Origin: Mesoplasma photuris ATCC 49581
GTDB taxonomy: Bacteria; Bacillota_I; Bacilli_A; Mycoplasmatales; Mycoplasmataceae
Length of the DNA: 64,000 bases
Assembly: GCF_000702725.1 (NCBI RefSeq)
Contig: NZ_JNJI01000002.1
Coordinates: 124,001 to 188,000, forward strand
Direction: 5' to 3'
The translations under genes and the position numbers were made by a program. Positions 6,693-35,156 of the stretch are shown piece after piece. How positions within the stretch are numbered: position 1 is the first letter of the stretch; each line of letters opens with the position of its first letter. The notes under the pieces are model-generated. The model was not told the DNA's origin, ran no database searches, and saw nothing but the letters and a program-made list of their open reading frames with translations.

Positions 6693-9377
6693 TTATTTAG
6701 AGTATTTACCTTGTGCTAAATTTGCGTTTCCGCCACCTTTAGCATTTAATGGTAAGTTTTTAAAAATATCAATTGCTTTGTGTTCGTTTTGAATAGATTC
6801 ACTAACTGCAACAACTAAGAATGACTCATCTTCACCCTCTGAAGCTAAAATTACAATTAAATTTTCGAATTTATTTCTTAAATCATCAGCAAGATTTTTC
6901 AAATCTTTAATATTTAAACCTGTTGTTGTCAATTTAATTTCATTAATGCCATCTTTATTTAAAGTTGGCTTTAAATCTTTAAATTTAGCTAATTTAGCAG
7001 CTGTGATTAAATCACTTGCTTTTTTATCAAATTCTTTATAAGCAAGTTTTAAGTCTTCAACCAAATTTTTTATAATTTCTAAATTTTGTTTTGAAATTTC
7101 AAGTTCTTTAATATTTTGGTAAATAGTATCAATGTTTTGATCAACCATAATTGATTTAGCATCATTATATTTAGTCATCACTTTATCAGCTTCTTCAATA
7201 AATTTATTAAATTGTTCTCTTAAATATTCTCCAACTGTTTCATTTGAAGTTAAACATTTAACTCTATATAAACCAGAACCTTTTGACTCAACTCCTGTAA
7301 TAATAAAGTCTTCAATATCTTTAGTATTATCGACGTGAGTTCCACCACATAATTCTGATGAAAAATCACCAAATTTAACAACTCTTACAATATCATCATA
7401 TTTTTCTGTAAAGAAAGCTAAAGCATGATATTTGTTAACTGCATCATCCATTGAACAGAAATAAACTTCTCGATCGTGTGCTTCATTAATACGCTTGATT
7501 ACTTCATCTTGAGTTTTTTGTAATTCCTCTTCAGTTAATTGTCTGTTAAATGTAAAGTCCATTCTTAAACCGTTTTCATCATTATATGAACCAGCTTGCA
7601 TAACACTATCGCCAAGAACATCTCTTAGTGCATAGTGAACCATATGAGTTCCGGAGTGGTTCTTCATTGTTAATGTTCTTTTATCTTCATCAACTTTTGC
7701 TTCAACCACGTCACCATTATTTACAGTTCCAGTTAGTTTAACTCTATGAATGTGTTGTTTATTTGGTCCTTGTTGAACATCTAAAACATTTGCTTTAAAG
7801 TTTTGACCAATAATAATTCCTGTATCAGCTGCTTGACCACCTTTTTCGGCATAGAATGGTGTTTTATCTAAAATGATAAATCCTTCTGTATCTGTTAAAG
7901 ATGCCAATTCCTTATCATCAGTGAAAAGGAAAACTACTTTTGCATTTTCTCTACTTGTTTCTTCTCAACCAGTAAATTCTGATTCAACATGTAATTTAGT
8001 AAATAGTTCATTTTGTTTGTCTCAAGCTTTTAAATCTTTTCTAGCGTTACGAGTAGCTTCTTTTGTTTCTTCTAGTAATGCTTCAAATCCAGCAAGATCA
8101 ACATTAACTCCACGTTCTGCTGAAATTTCTAATGTTTGTTCGATTGGAAAACCAAATGATTCAAATAAAAGTAAGGCATTTTTAGCAGAAACTTCTTTTT
8201 CATCATTAATTATTTTTTCTAAAAGATCATAACCCTTAGAAAGAGTTTTTAAGAATTTTTCTTCTTCGTTTTTGATTGTATCTACAATAATTGTTTTTTT
8301 ATCAGAAAGATATGGGTAAAATTCTCTCATCGCTTTAATTACTTCATCAACTAATTTATATAAGAATGAAGTTGTGATACCTATTTCTCTACCATAAATA
8401 GAAGATCTTCTGATTAAACGGCGAATAATATATCCGCGATCTTTATTACCAGGAAATACTCCATCAGCAATAGCAAAAGAAGTTGCTCTTACGTGATCGG
8501 CAATAACTTTAAAAGCCGTATTAATTCTTGTTTGCTCTTTTGTTGGATTTGAATAATTTTCGATTGAGTATTTAAATTTAGGATTACAGATTGTTTCAAC
8601 TTTTTTAATTGTTGGGAAAAATATATCTGTTTCAAAATTAGTTGGTGTATCTTGGAATATTGAGGCAATACGTTCTAAACCAGCACCAGTATCTATGTTT
8701 TTTCTAGGTAACTCAGTGTAGTTATTGTGACCATCATTATTAAATTGAGAAAAAACAACGTTTCATACTTCAATATATCGGTCATTTTCGATATCATCAG
8801 CAATTAATCTAGGACCAATATTTTCGGGATCTCATTTTTCTCCACGATCATAAAACATTTCTGTATTTGGACCACAAGGACCTTGACCAACATCTCAGAA
8901 ATTAGTATCTCTTCCTAATGAAAAAATATGATCTTTAGCAATTCCGATTTCTTCAGTTCAGATTTTGTAAGCTTCATCATCTTCATTAGAAACTGTTATA
9001 TATAATTTTTCAGCAGGAATATCAAATCATTTTGAAGAAGTTAATAACTCTCAAGCAAAATGAATTGCTTCAGTTTTAAAGTATTCACCAATTGAAAAAT
9101 TACCCAACATTTCAAACATAGTTTGGTGACGAGCAGTTACTCCAACATTTTCAATGTCATTTGTTCTAATTGCTTTTTGTGAGTTTGTTAATCTAGGTGC
9201 TGGTGGTGTTTTTCTACCATCAAAGTATGGTTTTAATGTTGCAACTCCTGAATTAATTCACAATAAAGATGCATCATCAACAGGTATTAAAGAAACTGGG
9301 GCTAAAAAGTGGTGGTGTTTTTCTTTAAAGAAATCTAGTCACATTTGTCTAATTTCATTAGTTGATAATTTTTTCAT
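6693..9377 (-). CDS. alaS: alanyl-tRNA synthetase
   Basis: This 894-residue protein charges tRNA-Ala. The class II catalytic core is at the N-terminus ([10 protein letters not shown] start, Phe-Leu-Asn/Ala-Pro strand, Gly-Pro-Cys-Gly-Pro-Asn near residue 155). The editing domain has the zinc-type His-Ser-Gly-Thr-His and Cys-Gly-Gly-Thr-His motifs, and the C-terminal end has a coiled, DHHA1-like region with Lys-Gly-Gly-Gly-like residues (Ala-Lys-Gly-Gly-Gly-Asn). Length is typical. Many Trp codons are TGA, mainly in the first 300 residues. It appears to be transcribed alone, with its own terminator. Confidence 0.97.
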
Positions 9378-9522
9378 ATTTCCTCTTTCTATTTTATTTT
9401 TACGCTTTAATAATTATAAACTTTTTAAATCGAGTTTTAAATACAGTTTTCAAGTTTAAAGATATTAATCTTTGTTTGCAAAATTATTGTTTGTTATGAG
9501 AAAATTACTACGAGGTATATAT

Positions 9523-10401
9523 ATGAAATTAAGAAATTTAGATAAACAAAGATTGATACTTGTAGACCTAGATGGTACTACTTTGAGAGATAAAGATGAT
9601 GAAATTCACGAACATACAAAAAAATCTTTAATCAAGGCAAAAAACGATGGTCATAAGATTTGTATTGTTACAGGTAGACCATGGAGAGCAATTCAACATA
9701 TTTATGAAGAATTGGAACTAGATACAATTGTTACGAACTTTGATGGAGCACATATTCATGATCCAAAAAAACAAGAGTTTAAACGTATTGTTTTTTCAAT
9801 CAACAACGAAATTATTCAAGCAATAATTTCAGAACCCGAAATTGAAGAATCAGTTGAAAATATCTTAATTGAATACTACGATAAAACTCTTATTTGAAAT
9901 TCGGATGATAAAGATTTGTTTAACTTTTTCCATTTAAATGATATTGGTGATAAAGAAAAATTTATTGAAGGTGATCCTAAAGTTATGTGAACAGGACCTT
10001 CAACAAATATTGTTTTGAAATTAAAAAACAACAAGAGAAAAAATATGGTCTTAAGAAAATTGGCTAAATATCAAAATGCAGTAAAAATCCAAAGCGATAT
10101 TTTATATGGAGTTAAATCAACAAGTGAAAAACCAGTTATTACTCTAACTAATAAAAACGCCACTAAGGGTGAGGCTGCAAATATATTGGCTCAATATTAC
10201 AATAAAGATATTAGAGATGTTATAGCTTTTGGTGATCAATTAAATGATTTTGAAATGTTACAAAAAGTAGGACATGGTATTGCAATGAAAAATGGAAGTG
10301 ATTCTTTAAAATTTGTGGCAAAAGGTATTACATATAAAACCAATGATGAAGGTGGTTTAGGTTTATACTTAGATATAATGCTTGATGGAAGAGAATTATA
10401 A
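9523..10401 (+). CDS. Cof-type HAD-IIB family phosphatase
   Basis: This 292-residue protein is a haloacid-dehalogenase phosphatase that probably acts on sugar phosphates or related small metabolites in the cytoplasm. Motif I is Val-Asp-Leu-Asp-Gly-Thr-Thr at residues 13-19, motif II is Val-Thr-Gly-Arg-Pro near residue 50, the motif III Lys is in Thr-Lys-Gly-Glu-Ala, and motif IV is Gly-Asp-Gln-Leu-Asn-Asp near residue 238. Two TGA Trp codons lie in the cap region. The start at 9523 follows GAGG; an in-frame ATG upstream at 9496 lacks such a site. The exact substrate cannot be told. Confidence 0.9.
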
Positions 10402-24901: not shown

Positions 24902-25573
24902 TTATCCTTTCTTAATTTTTTTGATTCCCTTAGCTAACTTTTTATTATTTTTTATTATTATTAAGTTAAAGTATTCTGGTGTTATGGTTGATAAATGGTT
25001 AATAAGCTCTTCATATATTTTAATTTTAAGAATAAATAAATCTGAATTTGTAACATCAACATAAAAATTTATGTAGTGAGTCAAATTTATGTACATTGAC
25101 AATAAGTAACCAAATTTATAGTAAAGAGGTTTTTTATCAATATTTAATTTTGAAAAAATATTACCGACACACATATACACTTCATTAAAATTTAAAATTT
25201 TTAATTCAGATTCTGAAAATTTTAAATTTAATTTATTAATATTTTCATTTTCTATATTTAAATTTATAATTTCTGAACCTAAACTCTTATTATAATTAGA
25301 AATTAAATTGAAAAAATCATCATGATTTTCTCCTTTAAATTTTGAATATAGAAAATGGGTTGTTGTTCTTAAAATATTTTTTTCATCAGAAAAATTTTCT
25401 TTATCTTGACCAGAAATTTGTAATAAATAGATAAAGTTTCTAATTGTTAAATCTTGTTTTTCAAGTTTTGTTAATTTAGGAAAATCCTTTCCGTCAATTT
25501 GATTATATTTTAAGAAGTTCTTGTACTCTTTTTTCTTATATCGAATTTTTTTGATCTTTTGTTGTTTGTTCAT
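24902..25573 (-). CDS. hypothetical protein, 223 residues
   Basis: I do not recognise this protein. It starts with a strongly basic stretch (Lys and Arg in 12 of the first 20 residues) and ends with another (Lys-Lys-Leu-Ala-Lys-Gly-Ile-Lys-Lys). The middle is Asn-, Ile- and Leu-rich and predicted helical. There is no Trp, so no TGA. Basic ends could suit RNA, DNA or acidic-membrane binding, which is a guess. It is the first gene of the operon with cls, ending three bases before the cls start. Confidence 0.78.
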   Translation of the reverse strand: MNKQQKIKKIRYKKKEYKNFLKYNQIDGKDFPKLTKLEKQDLTIRNFIYLLQISGQDKENFSDEKNILRTTTHFLYSKFKGENHDDFFNLISNYNKSLGSEIINLNIENENINKLNLKFSESELKILNFNEVYMCVGNIFSKLNIDKKPLYYKFGYLLSMYINLTHYINFYVDVTNSDLFILKIKIYEELINHLSTITPEYFNLIIIKNNKKLAKGIKKIKKG

Positions 25574-25602: not shown

Positions 25603-25631
25603 AAATAAAAAATAGGTGAAAACCTATTTTT
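25603..25631 (-). terminator. terminator of the 25624-26529 gene
   Basis: On the minus strand AATAGGT and ACCTATT form a seven-base stem around TTTC, followed by T. The TAG stop of the gene lies within the stem. Confidence 0.88.
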
Positions 25632-26529
25632 GTCTAGCAATAATTGGGAATGAAATTTTTATATCAGTTAATTTAGTTGTAATTTCATTGATCAATAAAT
25701 AATTTTTTTGTGTGATCGATGGAGTAACATAATTTTCCATTTTTTTAATATATAAAGAAGGCAGATTTGGTATAAAACCAAATTCAATATATTTCATTTC
25801 TTTTGGAACAATTGTTTTTAATAAAGTCATCAAATCAACATCCTTTTTAGTGAACATAGCAACCAATCTAAAAACATTACCCGAAATAGTAAAAACAACC
25901 GTTGTTGAAAGACTTGGAATATAATATACATTTCTTCTATAGTGTCTTAAAACATTGTATAGTTTAATTTCTGAATCACCGTTTGATGATAGTAATCTTG
26001 CATGTCTTGTAGAATATTTAATTTCTGTTTTCAAAAATTCAATATCTTTAAAATTATCAAAATCTAATTTTTTAACTGCTGATCCAACTTGAGAATCTTC
26101 ACCATTTCAAGGTATAAAATAAATAAATTCTTCAAATTCTTTAAATCCGTTTTCCAATAAAACTGATCTGTCTTCTAAAGAGTGAGTAAATATAATATCT
26201 GCAATATTAGAATATTTATCAATAACTTTTTTAAATAATATTTCTTTAAGACTTTCATTTGGCACACCATCTCTATATAAGATTTCTCCAAATTGATAGG
26301 CTTTAACTTGTTTTTCTTTTATATATAAGTTTGTTTTTATAATTCCCATTGTAATGACGATTTCATTATCATCATTAACTAAAGACGCAGGAATATAATT
26401 ATCAATTCATTGGTTTTTTACCATTCATTCTTCGAAGCAACCTTTTGCTTGTCTTTTAACTAGTGACATCAATTCACTGTTATAGTGTTTGTTATCATGA
26501 TAGTCGCTAATTAACTCGTAATTATCCAT
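25624..26529 (-). CDS. possible GNAT-like acetyltransferase, 301 residues
   Basis: The first 140 residues resemble a GNAT acetyltransferase fold: a strand, then Phe-Gly-Glu-Ile-Leu-Tyr-Arg-Asp-Gly-Val-Pro followed by a helix at the place of the acetyl-CoA loop, then Leu-Leu-Glu-Asn-Gly-Phe-Lys-Glu. The classical Arg-x-x-Gly-x-Gly/Ala is not preserved, so activity is uncertain. The C-terminal half may be a second related domain. Trp codons near the start and after Phe-Ile-Pro are TGA. AGGACC-type spacing and the ATG at 26529 fit the start. It stands alone between terminators. Confidence 0.55.
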
Positions 26530-26598: not shown

Positions 26599-26624
26599 TA
26601 AAAAACACCATTAGGTGTTTTTTA
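26599..26624 (-). terminator. terminator at the end of the prfA operon
   Basis: AAAAAACACC and GGTGTTTTTT form a ten-base perfect stem around a TAAT loop. The stop codon of the last gene (TAA at 26613 to 26611) is in the loop. It closes an eight-gene run. Confidence 0.92.
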
Positions 26625-27297
26625 ATTTAAAAATTTCATAATTAGATAATTTATCCGCTTCTAAAATAACTCTCTCATTTCTCGGGTTTAAAATGTACAT
26701 TTCCGATATTTTAAACTTGTTATTTGACTCAAATAATTCCTTTTGCATAAATAATTCTGCTGAGTATTTTTGATTGTAACTAGTTTTAGATGTTTTAAAC
26801 GATAGTAAAAATCATTCTTTTCCATTAGACATAATAGCATCAATTGTGCCAATATAAACATTTTCAAAATCGTTATTTATAAAAGTTTTATTTGGATAAA
26901 TATATTTTATATCCTTTTTGTATAAAAATTTATTGATATCATGCATTACTGATTTAGCTATCTCTATAATAAATTTGTCTTTTTCATCCATAGGATCAAA
27001 CTTTAAATCTAAGCCATTTCATTTTTCCAAATAATTAAAGATAATTTTTTTGATTCTTAAATTTCTATTTATTAAGCTTTTAACAACATCTTGATTAACT
27101 TTTTCAATGAAAGGAAAAACATCATTAACAATTTCTGGAATAGATTTTATTTTTATATTGTCATTCTCAAGTTTGTTTTTAACTAAATTTTGTATATGCA
27201 AATCAAGTGAAGTAATCGGCTTTATTAAAGAATATTCATATTTTTGATGATTATAAATTACAGAATTAGAAATATCATTAATTTTAGCAACCGACAT
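26611..27297 (-). CDS. PD-(D/E)XK nuclease-like protein, possibly degenerate
   Basis: This 228-residue protein carries a pattern like the RecB/Cas4 nuclease fold: Ile-Gly-Thr-Ile-Asp at residues 149-153, a turn with Asn-Gly-Lys, then a strand with Leu-Leu-Ser-Phe-Lys-Thr-Ser-Lys at 164-171, followed by a helix. In active members the strand reads Asp-x-Lys-Thr; here Ser 166 replaces that Asp while Lys 168 remains. The first Asp is Asp 153. I verified the frame across the whole gene. Its ATG overlaps the tsaC stop (TAATG). It could be an inactive or altered nuclease, or a chance resemblance. Confidence 0.5.
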
Positions 27298-27797
27298 TAT
27301 CTAACTCACTCTCCAGTTATGCTATTGTAGATTCTTGAGGATTGTCCATTTAAAATATCATCATAATATACTTTTATATCCGGATGGAAATTGCTTAATT
27401 CTTTAAATGTTCTCAGGGGTTTTGATCCAGTAATATTTACACTTGTTGAAAATATAGGACCAACCTGATTAATTATTTCTTTGATATCAATTCTATTAAC
27501 CATTCTAATAGCTATGGTTTCATTTTTTAACGGGAAAATGACTGTGGTTGGTTGATCACTCATCAAAATTTTTTTGATGTCTTCTGATAAAGATATTTTA
27601 TTCTCTAGTTGATCTAGTGAAGATATTAAAACAATTAATGGTTTATCCAGATCAGCATTTTTATATGCATTAATTTTTGTCATCAAGTCTTTTTTTAGGA
27701 TAGAAGAAAGTCCATATATAGTATCTGTTGGCAAAATTACGATTTTATTAATTTTAAGCTCTTCAACAGCTGATTTTATTTGTAAGCTAGTCAGCAT
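27297..27797 (-). CDS. tsaC: L-threonylcarbamoyladenylate synthase (YrdC/Sua5 family)
   Basis: This 166-residue protein makes threonylcarbamoyl-AMP, the first step of t6A modification of tRNAs that read ANN codons. It has Leu-Pro-Thr-Asp-Thr-Ile-Tyr-Gly-Leu at residues 22-30, Asp-Lys-Pro-Leu, and Ser-Thr-Ser-Val-Asn-Ile-Thr-Gly near residue 118, all family motifs. It is the short YrdC-type form without the Sua5 domain. It ends Glu-Trp-Val-Arg with Trp as TGA. It overlaps the upstream membrane-protein gene by 11 bases and the next gene by one base. Confidence 0.92.
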
Positions 27798-29358
27798 TCT
27801 TTCTGTTCTCTCTTCTCTTCTTAAGAATATTTCTTTTTAAAATTATTTTTTTAATTTCATCATTCAATTTTTTCTTAGCAACGTTAGTTTTTAAAATGCC
27901 TCTACCTAAAATTAAAAAGGCTGTTATAACTAACGAAAAACTAATAATTGATTCAGAAATAATACCTGCTTTATTTAATCATTCAAATCCTTTACCTTGG
28001 TCGATTCCTAATAATGGAAAAAGTGGATCAATTATTATTTGATTTTCAGAAACGATACCTCTTTCAGTTAATAATTTGAAATCCTCTGGTATTTTAGAAG
28101 AAATATATTCAAGATATTTTTGTCCATTTGAACTTACATCATCAAAAGAATCATTTCAAGTTTGAGAAAGATTTTCTAATTGTATTTTAGAATAAGTACA
28201 CACAGCCACCAATAATATAATCTCAACGAATAAAACAATATATTGAATTAAGAATACATTAGACGATACGTTTTCTCCCCTCACTATAACTGAAATAAAT
28301 GAAAATGTTGATGCAAATGTAAGTCCCATAATAATTGTTGGCAATGATGTTATTAAGAAAGGATCTGGAGTAACGTTTTGGAATGAGTCTAATATTTTAA
28401 GACTTTCTTCATTATTAAAAACTTCATAATCTTTTAATAAGTTTGGTAGCTTATATGTTCAATCAATAAGGGCACTTGATGCTGAATTACCATCAGAAAT
28501 TATGATTACATAAATCAAGTGTGGTGTAATACATAATAGCGTTGTTATAACAGTTCAAGTTGCTAAATTTTTTTCACTAAAATTAAATGTTTTTACTAAA
28601 AGTCTTTTAAAAGGTGATTCTGAAACACTTTTTTCATTTGAAATAATTTTTATATATTTTTCGATTCCTTCTGATTGTTTTTTTCCAAAGATAGAATTTT
28701 GTAGAGAAACTGAAACAGCAAAAATCATTGTAATTTGTATAAACATTGTTCATCAAACTAAATTCATATCTTGTCATTTATATGCATCTTTACCAGATTT
28801 ATAACTTTCAGAAAAATAACGAGATATTTCTTGAAAAACAGGTATTTTAGAGGCTCTATCTATAAGTAAATTTGTCTCATCAATTTGTGTGATTGATTCA
28901 TATAAATAAAAGCTTTCAAATTTAGAATATTGAAATTGAGATAGAGTTGCAAGTAAGAACGCAATTAAAGCCATAAGCACCAAAAGTCAAATATATGACA
29001 TCTTAAGCGTCTTATTAACACCATTTCCACTAACTATAGGTTTAAACATTATAAACATAATTGTTGTAATAACCATAAAGGCGAATCCAGATCAAAGTGG
29101 TCCTTCTATTTCAAATTTACTTGGTAAAACCATATATTCTTTTATTTCATTAAACTTTTCATAATAAAAATCTAAATTAGAATTATTTTCTATGATGTAA
29201 ACGTATACATAAAAAGGTATTAATGCTGTTAAAAAAATAAATAAACCTAGAATAGCCATTTTATACATATTTAAATTTTTTCTTTTGATTTTAGGATCAC
29301 TATCATTAAAACCAAAATTTAATTTAAAGTCGAAATTAAAATCTATTTTTTTATCCAT
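27787..29358 (-). CDS. multi-pass membrane protein of unknown function
   Basis: This 523-residue protein has a basic, Phe/Asn-rich N-terminal stretch and then about seven hydrophobic segments. They lie near residues 35-57, 95-110, 120-140, 205-225, 270-290, 335-360 and 370-395, with another near 470-490. The C-terminal 35 residues are strongly basic (Lys-Lys-Lys-Leu and Lys-Lys-Arg-Arg-Glu runs). I do not recognise a family. It lies between prmC and tsaC, ten bases after the first and overlapping the second by 11 bases. It is therefore transcribed with release-factor and tRNA-modification genes, which is unexpected for a membrane protein. Confidence 0.82.
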
Positions 29359-31313: not shown

Positions 31314-31931
31314 CTATTTTTTAGGAAGTTTGTAGCAATTTCTACATCTTGCTTCATAACTATCTGTTTCACCAACCAACACAATTGGTGAGTCTCAATT
31401 AGCGGGTTCTCCATTGATTATTCTTTGTGTTCTATTTGCAAAATTACCACATTTATGACAAATTGCAGTTAGTTTATCAACAAATTCAGCCAACACTAAT
31501 AATTTATCTACGTTTTGGAAGGGTTCACTTCTAAAATCTTTATCTAATCCAGTAACAATTACTATTACACCATTATTTGCTAACAACTCAATAAACGGAA
31601 CAATTTTTTTGTCCATAAATTGAACTTCATCAATTCCGATTATATCAATCGGTGAAATCGCATTTTCTTTTTTATATATTTCAATCAATTGTTCAACAGA
31701 ACTTACTGGATATGATTTTAAAACGGCACCAGAATGTGAAGCGATTAAATCTTCAGAATATCTATTATCAATAGATGGTTTAAAGGCAACCACTCTTTTT
31801 TTTGCATAATCATTTCTTCTTAATCTTCTGATAAACTCTTCAGTTTTACCAGCAAACATACAACCTGTAATCAATTCAATGCGACCTAATTTATTAACTG
31901 AATTTGAATTAACTTCTTGTTCTCTAATCAT
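31314..31931 (-). CDS. tdk: thymidine kinase
   Basis: This 205-residue enzyme phosphorylates thymidine for nucleotide salvage. Walker A is Gly-Cys-Met-Phe-Ala-Gly-Lys-Thr near residue 23, followed by Ile-Asp-Glu-Val-Gln-Phe. The zinc lasso is shown by Cys-His-Lys-Cys and by Cys-Arg-Asn-Cys near the C-terminus. One TGA Trp is in Ala-Asn-Trp-Asp-Ser-Pro. It starts two bases after the DHH gene stop. Neighbourhood with prfA is common in low-GC Gram-positive bacteria. Confidence 0.95.
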
Positions 31932-31933
31932 AT

Positions 31934-32893
31934 TTATTTACCTTCCTTACCGTTTTTAACTAACTTGTCTAAATCTTTTGTTAAACTAGAAATTTCATCA
32001 AAAGAATTTAATGATGCACCAGATGCTACTCGGTGACCACCGCCATTATATTTTGTAGCAACACTATTAACATCATAATCACGACTTCTTAAAGAAACTT
32101 TTATTTGACCATTTTCCATTTCGATAACAGTAAATCAAATTACAATTTCATGCATACCTGACATGGTTGCTAATGCGCCTTTAACTTCATTGTAGTCTAA
32201 ATCTCAACCAGCATAATCCTCTTTTTTAATAACAATTGAAGCAACTCCATGTTTTGATAAAGTCATTTTACTGAAAGCAAAGTTTGATCATTTTCTATTT
32301 TTTAAATCATTTACAAAAATGTAATCATGTGCTTTTTTTAGATCTGCACCTTGTTCTAATAATCTAGCAGCTACTCTAAAAGTTACTGGATTTGTTTTTG
32401 GAAATAAAAATCTACCTGAATCAGTTAATAAACCTAAGTATAAATTGTGGGCACCCGCTGCTGGAATTTCTAATTTCATCATTTCTGCTCATAATGTAAC
32501 AACTTCTGTACATGCAATTGCAGATTCCATAACAATCTGGTTATTTGCATACTTATCAACATCAATATGATGATCAATTTTAAAAGTATCTCCAGCTAAA
32601 TCATATTTATCGAAATCAAGTCTAGCTTTATTTCCTGTATCAACCGTAATAACCAATGCCGATTTAATAAAATCGTTTGTTAATTTTTTCTTTGGTAAAA
32701 AATCTTTATCATCATTTAATCTATCACCTACTACAAAAATATTTTTATTTTCAAAATTTTCTTTAATAATGTGAGCAAGACCCATCGCACTTCCTTGCGC
32801 ATCTCAATCAGGCAATTGATGTTTCACGATAATAATGTTTTCATGACCTTTAATTTTTTTTACTAATGTTTTTGCGTCTTTTTTATTAATCAT
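31934..32893 (-). CDS. DHH/DHHA1 phosphoesterase (NrnA-like)
   Basis: This 319-residue protein belongs to the bifunctional oligoribonuclease/pAp or cyclic-dinucleotide phosphodiesterase family. Motifs are Asp-Trp-Asp-Ala-Gln-Gly-Ser near residue 30 (Trp from TGA), Thr-Val-Asp-Thr-Gly, Ile-Asp-His-His near residue 105, and the DHHA1 Asn-Gly-Gly-Gly-His-Arg near the C-terminus. It probably degrades nanoRNA, pAp or pApA. A fast choice between these is not possible from sequence alone. It lies 18 bases after the 34789 gene. Confidence 0.9.
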
Positions 32894-32911: not shown

Positions 32912-34789
32912 CTATATTATTTTACTAATTGTTTTAGTATTTACATAGATAAAAATTCTTTTATTTTCTGTTAAATTTCTATCTAATGAGTAAAAGTAAA
33001 TTTCTTCACCTTTTTCAGTAATGATTCTTCTCATTCTTTTATCAGCATAAGCGTTAGAATTTTTAATAAAACCAATAATTGGTAATTCATCTTTCTTAAC
33101 ATTGTCTGATGTTGTTTCTATTTCAAAAGGATTTAATAAAAATTTACCTTCTGTTTTTTGAGGTTCAATATTTGCATTTCAAAACCTGTTATTAACCTCC
33201 AAACGGTCATTAACTATCTTAAAATTTATTGTATTTGAGGTTAAATTAAATAAACTTTGGATATTTATATGTGGTTGTTCAATTAAGGTTTTTGGTGCAA
33301 TTGATCTTAAAACATTTTTAGCATCAATTGCATAAACTTCTTTGTTAATTTTACTAATAGTTTTAAAGTTATCATGTAACATCATGAAAGAAATATTTGG
33401 GTATACTGTATTTATTTTTTTGATCGCATTATTTAAGTGCTCTAAATCTTTTGAAGTTAAAAGATTCAACATATTCCAAAAAACAATGTTTGTTTTATTC
33501 ATATTAATAGCTTTTAAAATTTTGATATAAATCATATTTAATGACGAAATCTTAAATCCATTTTTTAAAAATCAATCGAATTTCATATCTAATTGTTCTA
33601 AGTTTTTTCCAGTTCATTCAATAGCTTGAGTAAAAGTAGAATGAATATCTTTTTTATACTGTTTTTTGATTTTATCATATTCTTCTATGTCGCTATAATT
33701 AACATTACCTGTTAATAATTTTTTATGATATTCGTGAATTAAAAAAGATATTTTACTTGCAACTTCTTCACCACGTTCATTAATTATTTTAAATAATTCT
33801 TTTTGCTCTTTAGTAAAGTCGTTTCTTTTATCTCTTGTAAATCTTTGTGCATTTAAATACTCTTTTTCAATATTAGATTGTAATTCCTTAGTGATATCAT
33901 ATTTAGAATAAAAAGTCTTAAATTCTTTTTTCAGTTGTTTATCAACTTGTTTAAATTTTCACTTCGCTTTTAAAATTTTAAATCTCAATTCATTTATATA
34001 AAAAGAAATAAATTTTAATCTTTTTTCTACCATGTACTTAGTTTGAATATATGAAAATTTCTTAGAGAATTTTCTTAAATATTTGTTACTTGATTTTGCA
34101 GCATTATATTCACACGTACAAGTATTTCTTAAATCGTTAAATAACGATACATTATCTCAAAGTAATTGATTAAAAATTAAAGCAGTTTCATTAATTTTAA
34201 TTTCCTCATAAAGTCTTGATTTTTCTCTTGTTAAAACTTGAATTTGAGGTGACAAGTCTTTAAAAATTTGAGGTATTTTTCGATCCCAATAAGTATTTAA
34301 TTCAAGTTTAAGTTGTTTCAAAATTTTCTTTTCAGGATTTGTTGTTTCATCAATAAAATTATTTATTGATGAATCTATTTTTACTCTCAATTTTTGATCA
34401 GTTAAATCATTTTTTGAATCAAGTATTGAAAGATAATCATATTTTTTGTCGATCGTTCTCAATCTAGCTTTTCGCAAAAATTTAGCATCAAATAAAAGTG
34501 AAGCCACTAAAATTATTTTCGATGGTATTAAACGTTCAAAAAAAGTGTCTGTTCCAATAAATTCAACACTTCTTTTAGCATATCTTTTGTTGACAACATC
34601 TAAATTATTTATTTGATATCTACCAGAATCAAATTTTTCTTTACCCTTTAAGACTTTCTTAAAAAATTTCATCTTTTCTTTAGAGTCAATAACAACATTT
34701 GCTGTTTTTCCATCAATAGTTTCTATATTTATTCCTAAGATAGGAGAATCTTCACTTTTAAATACTATTTTATCAATTTTGTAAGTCAT
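32912..34789 (-). CDS. ABC-type ATPase-like protein lacking the ATP-binding motifs
   Basis: This 625-residue protein follows the outline of an ABC ATPase, but the catalytic motifs are missing. The end of a P-loop helix, then Lys-Gly-Lys-Glu-Lys-Phe-Asp-Ser-Gly-Arg at 48-57, matches the usual Gly-x-x-Pro-x-Ser-Gly. The Walker A place (about 34-42) reads Asp-Ser-Lys-Glu-Lys-Met. Walker B is Ile-Val-Phe-Trp-Asn-Met at 435-440 instead of an acidic Asp-Glu, and the signature Leu-Ser-Gly-Gly-Gln is absent. A His at 472 in Met-Leu-His-Asp fits the H loop. A long charged coiled region (about 100-400) sits between. Trp 438 uses TGG. It leads the operon with DHH, tdk and prfA. Confidence 0.7.
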
Positions 34790-34835: not shown

Positions 34836-34860
34836 AAATAAAAAGGCATACGCCTTTTAA
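34836..34860 (-). terminator. terminator of rpmE
   Basis: On the minus strand AAAAGGC and GCCTTTT pair around a GTAT loop with T-rich sequence after. Confidence 0.88.
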
Positions 34861-34874
34861 TTATTAGTTTAAAA

Positions 34875-35156
34875 CTATTTTTGTTTTTTAGCGTTTTCAG
34901 CTTTTTGCGCTGCTGAATCTGATTCAGCTGATGCTTTAATAGCATCTTTTCTTGCAAATTTTGTTTTAAATTGTTCAACACGTCCAGCATTGTTTAAGAA
35001 TTGTTGGTTTCCTGTGTAGAATGAGTGACAGTTTGAACAAACGTCAATACGCACTTCTTCTCCCTTAGCAGTTCCACAAATAAATTCGTTTTCACAAGTT
35101 GTACATACAAATTTAGCTTCTTCGAAGTAATTTGGTTGAATATCTTTTTTTGGCAT
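34875..35156 (-). CDS. rpmE: 50S ribosomal protein L31 (zinc type)
   Basis: This 93-residue protein is L31, which bridges the subunits. The four zinc-binding cysteines are in Cys-Thr-Thr-Cys at residues 18-21 and Cys-Ser-Asn-Cys at 39-42, so this is the C+ type. His-Ser-Phe-Tyr-Thr-Gly-Asn-Gln and Arg-Val-Glu-Gln-Phe follow as in the family. The last 20 residues form an Ala/Lys-rich tail beyond the usual end. The gene has its own promoter and terminator. Confidence 0.96.
   Translation of the reverse strand: MPKKDIQPNYFEEAKFVCTTCENEFICGTAKGEEVRIDVCSNCHSFYTGNQQFLNNAGRVEQFKTKFARKDAIKASAESDSAAQKAENAKKQK

Follow-up and report, generated by a model that had tools for sequence, protein, structure and literature searches.

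A mollicute ABC-type protein without ATP-binding motifs, an apparent retired importer ATPase, and its DHH phosphoesterase neighbor

Here we analyzed a gene in a window of 64,000 nucleotides from Mesoplasma photuris ATCC 49581 (contig NZ_JNJI01000002.1, positions 124,001 to 188,000), a mollicute with a 779 kb genome in ten contigs. The gene, referred to here as pseudo-ABC, lies at positions 32912-34789 of the window on the minus strand, coordinates that an initial annotation made from the sequence alone had given correctly. Its frame is open only when TGA is read as Trp, as it is in this genome; it contains five TGA codons and encodes a protein of 625 amino acids (P0001). Profile comparisons identify the product as a true ATP-binding cassette (ABC) homolog by descent, and its sequence relationships indicate that it is a retired importer ATPase. 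The former nucleotide-binding domain (NBD) is split by a helical insert that carries all of the invariant residues of the family, and a DHH phosphoesterase gene follows directly downstream. We tentatively propose that the protein has no ATPase activity and serves this neighboring nanoRNase as a scaffold or regulator, probably one that binds metal.

ABC ancestry and an insert-bearing importer paralog

P0001 alone had no match in Pfam up to E 10, and a single-sequence search of the PDB returned nothing useful. A 30-member profile matched EcfA2 (E 9.3e-13; profile positions 1-71 and 391-497), the ModC-type ATPase 3d31 (1.3e-11; 3-96 and 396-565), and PotA (about 2e-10; best stretch 394-597). Among the 30 individual members, five matched Pfam ABC_tran at E<=1 (best 0.0016), and six to nine matched the NCBIfam models for UgpC, CysA, and similar proteins, some at 1e-14 to 1e-18. 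A profile of the insert alone gave no PDB match better than E 0.096, and the ABC signal therefore stems from the two parts of the NBD. The homology is significant on both sides of the gap between the Q-loop and the signature, which places the protein in the ABC superfamily by descent.

The N-terminal half of the former NBD comprises residues 1-99 (34493-34789, minus strand), and the C-terminal half with its linker comprises residues 401-567 (33089-33589, minus strand; border approximate). The beta-rich C-terminus, about residues 568-625 (32915-33088, minus strand; border also approximate), lies at the TOBE/OB place of PotA and UgpC. This assignment comes from the alignment of profile positions 394-597 to PotA residues 110-339 and from strands predicted at low confidence; P0001 has no Pfam TOBE match. 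An AlphaFold2 model of the full protein, built on six sequences, had a mean predicted local distance difference test score (pLDDT) of 70, with 36-58 over the first 100 residues of the NBD and mostly 80-93 in the insert. Its best PDB matches in Foldseek were PotA, GlcV, CysA, and MsmX (probability 0.94-0.99), with E 1e-3 to 8e-3, TM 0.12-0.21, and the NBD part at low confidence; no match of the full model reached E 0.001. VIA gave Z up to 8.0, mostly for helices. The initial annotation had argued that the order of elements follows that of an ABC ATPase, to be checked by structure prediction and fold comparison. The fold comparison did not refute this, and descent is further supported by the profile matches and the alignment to an intact paralog described below. 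PotA, MalK, GlcV, and CysA, which combine an NBD with TOBE, are the best structural and profile relatives, although all of them have every ATP motif and none has the long insert.

Motif loss was assessed in 58 aligned members: 47 loci from the 60 genomes of the family (f1) minus two frameshifted copies (G044 and G050), five from family f9, and eight of nine from f5. First copies stand for two refetched f9 duplicates, and L130 represents L049. In P0001 the motif places contain GKEKFDSG (49-56), DSKEKM (35-40), FWNM (437-440), and SKD (446-448). Aligned to the intact paralog, Walker A GPSGCGKST is replaced by IDSKEKMKF (34-42), the signature LSGGQQQR by ISSLNMIY (414-421), and VLLLDEPLSNLDAK at the Walker B place by NIVFWNMLNLLTSK (434-447). 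The Walker A pattern G-x4-GK[ST] is present in none of the 58 members, and the position of its Lys varies widely (K in 12/58). At the Walker B Asp place, D is found in 8/58 and W in P0001, while the catalytic Glu place is never Glu (0/58). The first signature Gly is kept in 7/58 members (P0001 reads ISSLN), and the Q-loop place (78-86, IGTDTFFER) has Gln in 1/58. The initial annotation had stated that every ATP-binding motif was lost; the four strings that it gave read as claimed, and the alignments indicate that the loss is complete across the whole pseudo-ABC family. It had also seen a His in the H-loop place, which was incorrect: the aligned residue is D473, where His occurs in 0/58; the His that it saw, H472, precedes this place by one residue, and 9/58 members have His there.

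The window genome also encodes an intact insert-bearing UgpC-type ATPase of 638 amino acids (L151:3895-5808), with Walker A, signature, and Walker B preserved. Its importer operon is ordered DHH, lipoprotein, ATPase, permease, permease, which we take to resemble the MG187-MG190 genes. Compared as single sequences, the two inserts match with E 8e-4 and probability 25, and as profiles with E 3e-6 and probability 88; the best of 12 column shuffles gave 0.099 and the reversed profile 0.085. The full-length profile aligned to the intact paralogs with E 1.6e-19, collinear over 590 columns. The insert and full-length comparisons therefore make the pseudo-ABC gene a paralog of the insert-bearing UgpC-type importer ATPase. 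In two f9 genomes, the insert profile also matched weakly at a second locus, an intact UgpC-type ATPase whose insert sits at the same place. The two proteins share full-length collinear homology including the insert, and each has a DHH gene beside it, but the importer ATPase retains its ATP motifs and is encoded next to two permeases and a lipoprotein. Similar importer operons occur in f3, where the DHH gene follows the permeases, and in f7. For an ABC transporter of hominis-group mycoplasmas that shares a transcript with a surface nuclease, a role in the import of nucleic acid precursors has been proposed (PMC3585158). A still larger insert at the same place, with about 530 residues preceding the signature, is found in the intact UgpC-type ATPases of two g5 genomes (L165:3482-5857 and L166:2913-5297; 792-795 amino acids).

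The initial annotation suggested that the protein may be the structural partner of a genuine ABC protein. Such a role, as a regulatory subunit or an NBD without catalysis, would suit the importer-type ancestry of the NBD and TOBE place, and there are known cases of asymmetric ABC dimers in which one site is dead. We nevertheless find this reading doubtful. The nearest intact relative, the insert-bearing paralog, is present in 21/60 family genomes (E<=1e-55) versus 60/60 for pseudo-ABC, a distribution that argues against an obligate partnership with that importer, although pseudo-ABC might still pair with a different ABC protein. No importer permease, as would accompany a MalK/UgpC/PotA-type ATPase, is encoded beside pseudo-ABC in the loci inspected, and the constant neighbor is the DHH gene. 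The loss of motifs on both halves also appears to be more than the single dead site of a heterodimer needs.

The helical insert and its invariant residues

The insert spans about residues 100-400 (33590-34492, minus strand) and is homologous to the insert of the intact UgpC-type ATPases. The initial annotation described a coiled insert of about 300 residues, and both the length and the helical character agree; in the prediction, however, the long helices pack into a bundle. Modeled alone, the insert had a pLDDT of 89.5 and a pTM of 0.81. Among the matches listed in fold searches with this model, there were generic helical bundles only (best VIA Z 9.0; best Foldseek E 0.033).

Four columns are invariant across the 58 members, and all of them fall within the insert: D212 (34154-34156, computed from the residue number), C224 and C226 of a CxC motif (34112-34120), and H355 in the segment H352-x-Y354-H355 (33725-33736), all on the minus strand. 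Y354 is found in 56/58. Identity to P0001 is 17-47% for the 29 members compared. The CxC motif is absent from all 13 intact UgpC-type inserts, a further difference from the importer ATPase. In the insert model, one long helix has D212 close to its end, C224 and C226 are in a short segment after it, and H355 is near the end of another helix; from helix order and topology, these ends should lie together. The four residues likely form a putative Zn-type metal site.

The insert profile matched 75 of 248 genomes of the order: all 60 of the family, five of f9, nine of f5, and one of f3, where the lone weak match is likely due to chance. Near relatives of the window genome that carry the gene are Acholeplasma multilocale and Mesoplasma seiffertii, and further carriers include M. 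grammopterae, M. lactucae, and Williamsoniiplasma lucivorax. This retention, together with the four invariant residues, suggests that pseudo-ABC is under selection for a function. A decaying gene kept by chance would explain why two of the 47 f1 copies read are frameshifted, but it is extremely unlikely given the retention in 60/60 genomes and the residues fixed at such low identity. An apparent ortholog, MMSYN1_0138, is also one of the proteins that the minimal genome retains with no known function (PMC6629657). The two frameshifted copies (L046 in G044 and L047 in G050, both g8) are split in two frames with the pieces otherwise readable, reflecting either sequencing error or recent decay.

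The DHH neighbor and possible roles

The DHH gene (31934-32893, minus strand) starts 18 nucleotides past pseudo-ABC. It is directly downstream of pseudo-ABC in all 60 genomes in which adjacency was read (47 of the 60 in f1, five in f9, and eight in f5). Its product has DHH and DHHA1 domains with the DxD, D, DHH, and GGGH catalytic motifs kept, and it resembles NrnA, scoring 198 bits, below the NCBIfam NrnA equivalog cut-off of 350. NrnA-like genes number exactly two in the window genome: one adjoins pseudo-ABC, and the other belongs to the operon of the intact paralog. We also inspected 30 DHH loci from 18 genomes of other families in which pseudo-ABC had no listed match; none of these loci had rpmE or tdk within about 1.5 kb, which we count in favor of the link proposed below. 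In a midpoint-rooted tree of DHH proteins with open deep forks, the seven importer-linked proteins cluster together (96/94), separate from those linked to pseudo-ABC, a topology that does not date a possible duplication of the ABC and DHH pair.

Several side observations concern the DHH genes themselves. Motif I (residues 28-35) reads PDWD or PDFD in 23/39 pseudo-ABC-linked rows and PDGD in the other 16, and PDGD in 7/7 importer-linked proteins; Trp or Phe in this catalytic motif of one DHH lineage may perhaps reflect a substrate change. In Mesoplasma lactucae, two tandem DHH genes (L083:7923-8870 and 8895-9836) directly follow pseudo-ABC. Another DHH/ABC adjacency is found in L202 (G092, f11; 725-2944), where a DHH gene has an ABC ATPase gene, or half of one, on either side.

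In the explanation that we favor, a MalK/UgpC-type importer ATPase that already had the helical insert of about 300 residues between Q-loop and signature would have been duplicated. One copy would have been kept in the importer operon, while the other would have lost ATP binding and hydrolysis and become a cytosolic non-enzyme. Its insert, with the fixed Asp, Cys-x-Cys, and His set as a likely Zn-type site, may then have become a metal-stabilized scaffold or regulator, which would act with the adjoining NrnA-type DHH phosphoesterase by holding or gating the enzyme or its short nucleotide substrates. Metal binding, a physical interaction with the DHH protein, and an effect on its activity are each part of what we infer. 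Several points weigh against this explanation. The geometry of the D/CxC/H set is drawn only from helix order, and the CxC and His residues could be structural without a metal. The genes rpmE and tdk are conserved neighbors as well, and the adjacency to the DHH gene may be plain operon conservation. A mirror-tree analysis of 28 genomes (L001-L030; L017 and L018, both g4, had been excluded in advance) gave a partial correlation of 0.386 between pseudo-ABC and DHH, compared with 0.390 for tdk and 0.381 for rpmE, and thus no specific signal.

The DHH neighbor could also be accommodated if the remodeled NBD face were to bind a ligand other than ATP and signal through the insert, making the protein a nucleotide sensor. 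NrnA-type enzymes act on suitable ligands, namely pAp, pApA, or c-di-AMP (PMC7373297, PMC6609329). We regard a sensor as very unlikely, since the former ATP site has no new conserved pattern and its Walker A positions vary freely, unlike a ligand pocket.

With its helical arm between the lobes of the NBD and a phosphoesterase gene alongside, the locus also recalls Rad50/SbcC and SMC proteins, whose ABC ATPase halves are separated by a coiled coil and which work with or near a nuclease. Pseudo-ABC differs from these proteins in having no ATP site, a predicted short bundle rather than a long coiled coil, and an invariant CxC in place of CxxC, the form of the Rad50 zinc hook. VIA Z values for helical matches stayed below 10, and Rad50 was the seventh-ranked Foldseek match of the AlphaFold2 model (probability 0.38). 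A bolder reading, which we judge quite unlikely, is that the ABC and DHH pair is a nuclease module with a layout like that of Rad50-Mre11/SbcCD, born in a mollicute importer of nucleic acid precursors. One copy would power import, while the other would have left the membrane and dropped ATP, its arm serving as a metal-loaded clamp that steers the nanoRNase. If so, MMSYN1_0138-0139 would be one machine of the minimal cell.

The gene cluster and the minimal-cell counterpart

The order of genes on the minus strand is gltX, HD, pyrG, fba, rpmE, pseudo-ABC, DHH, tdk, prfA, prmC, a membrane protein, and tsaC, with names that, except for DHH, we take from the translations. The conserved upstream neighbor at 34875-35156 is presumably rpmE (ribosomal protein L31), and the gene at 31314-31931 is presumably tdk (thymidine kinase), by synteny with tdk/0140 of the minimal cell; both are on the minus strand. 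The initial annotation had pseudo-ABC leading an operon with nuclease and release-factor genes. The cluster does include a nuclease-type gene and prfA in tight arrangement, while its operon status is read from layout only: pseudo-ABC appears to head an operon because a terminator-like hairpin (34841-34858, minus strand) separates it from rpmE and the genes downstream are nearly gapless.

With rpmE, prfA, prmC, and tsaC as cluster mates, pseudo-ABC might instead be a translation- or RNA-associated factor that binds the ribosome or tRNA, and the ABC-F proteins are ABC-related ribosome binders with helical arms. This is unlikely, in our view: pseudo-ABC has one split NBD in 625 amino acids rather than two in tandem, and without ATP motifs it could not use an ABC-F mechanism. 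The neighbors are also of mixed function (tdk, DHH), and rpmE and prfA are perhaps mere operon company.

MMSYN1_0138 of JCVI-syn3.0 and Mycoplasma mycoides is apparently the ortholog of pseudo-ABC, because of its published description (PMC6629657) and because its number falls between those of FBA (0131) and ytqI/0139 and tdk/0140. The order of these minimal-cell genes, ytqI/0139 encoding the DHH protein, is that of the window (PMC6609329). The product of ytqI/0139 is described as a likely pAp phosphatase and quasi-essential (PMC6609329), and it has been termed a nanoRNase (PMC4993169). That MMSYN1_0138 is an ABC-type protein with missing ATP motifs is already in print, in a passage that draws no origin, insert, or partner for it (PMC6629657); we found no further paper on this protein in the open-access literature. 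Dead ABC proteins are thus nothing new in themselves, and there is one earlier remark on this one. In the open-access literature that we searched, we found no description of where it comes from, of the residues fixed in its insert, or of its proximity to a nanoRNase gene.

The ancestry alone gives pseudo-ABC an origin: it is an importer ATPase that was retired and gained a fixed Asp/Cys/Cys/His site. If the protein is a true partner of the 0139 nanoRNase, one of the unknowns of the minimal cell would be reduced to a simple pull-down test, and it would be documented that an importer ATPase can give up ATP hydrolysis and become the partner of an enzyme that degrades RNA.

Four neighboring proteins in the window (27787-29358, 26611-27297, 25624-26529, and 24902-25573) had no Pfam match at E 0.01. 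The first of these, a membrane-like protein of 523 amino acids, is kept in the same cluster in all five of the relatives named above (L081-L085).
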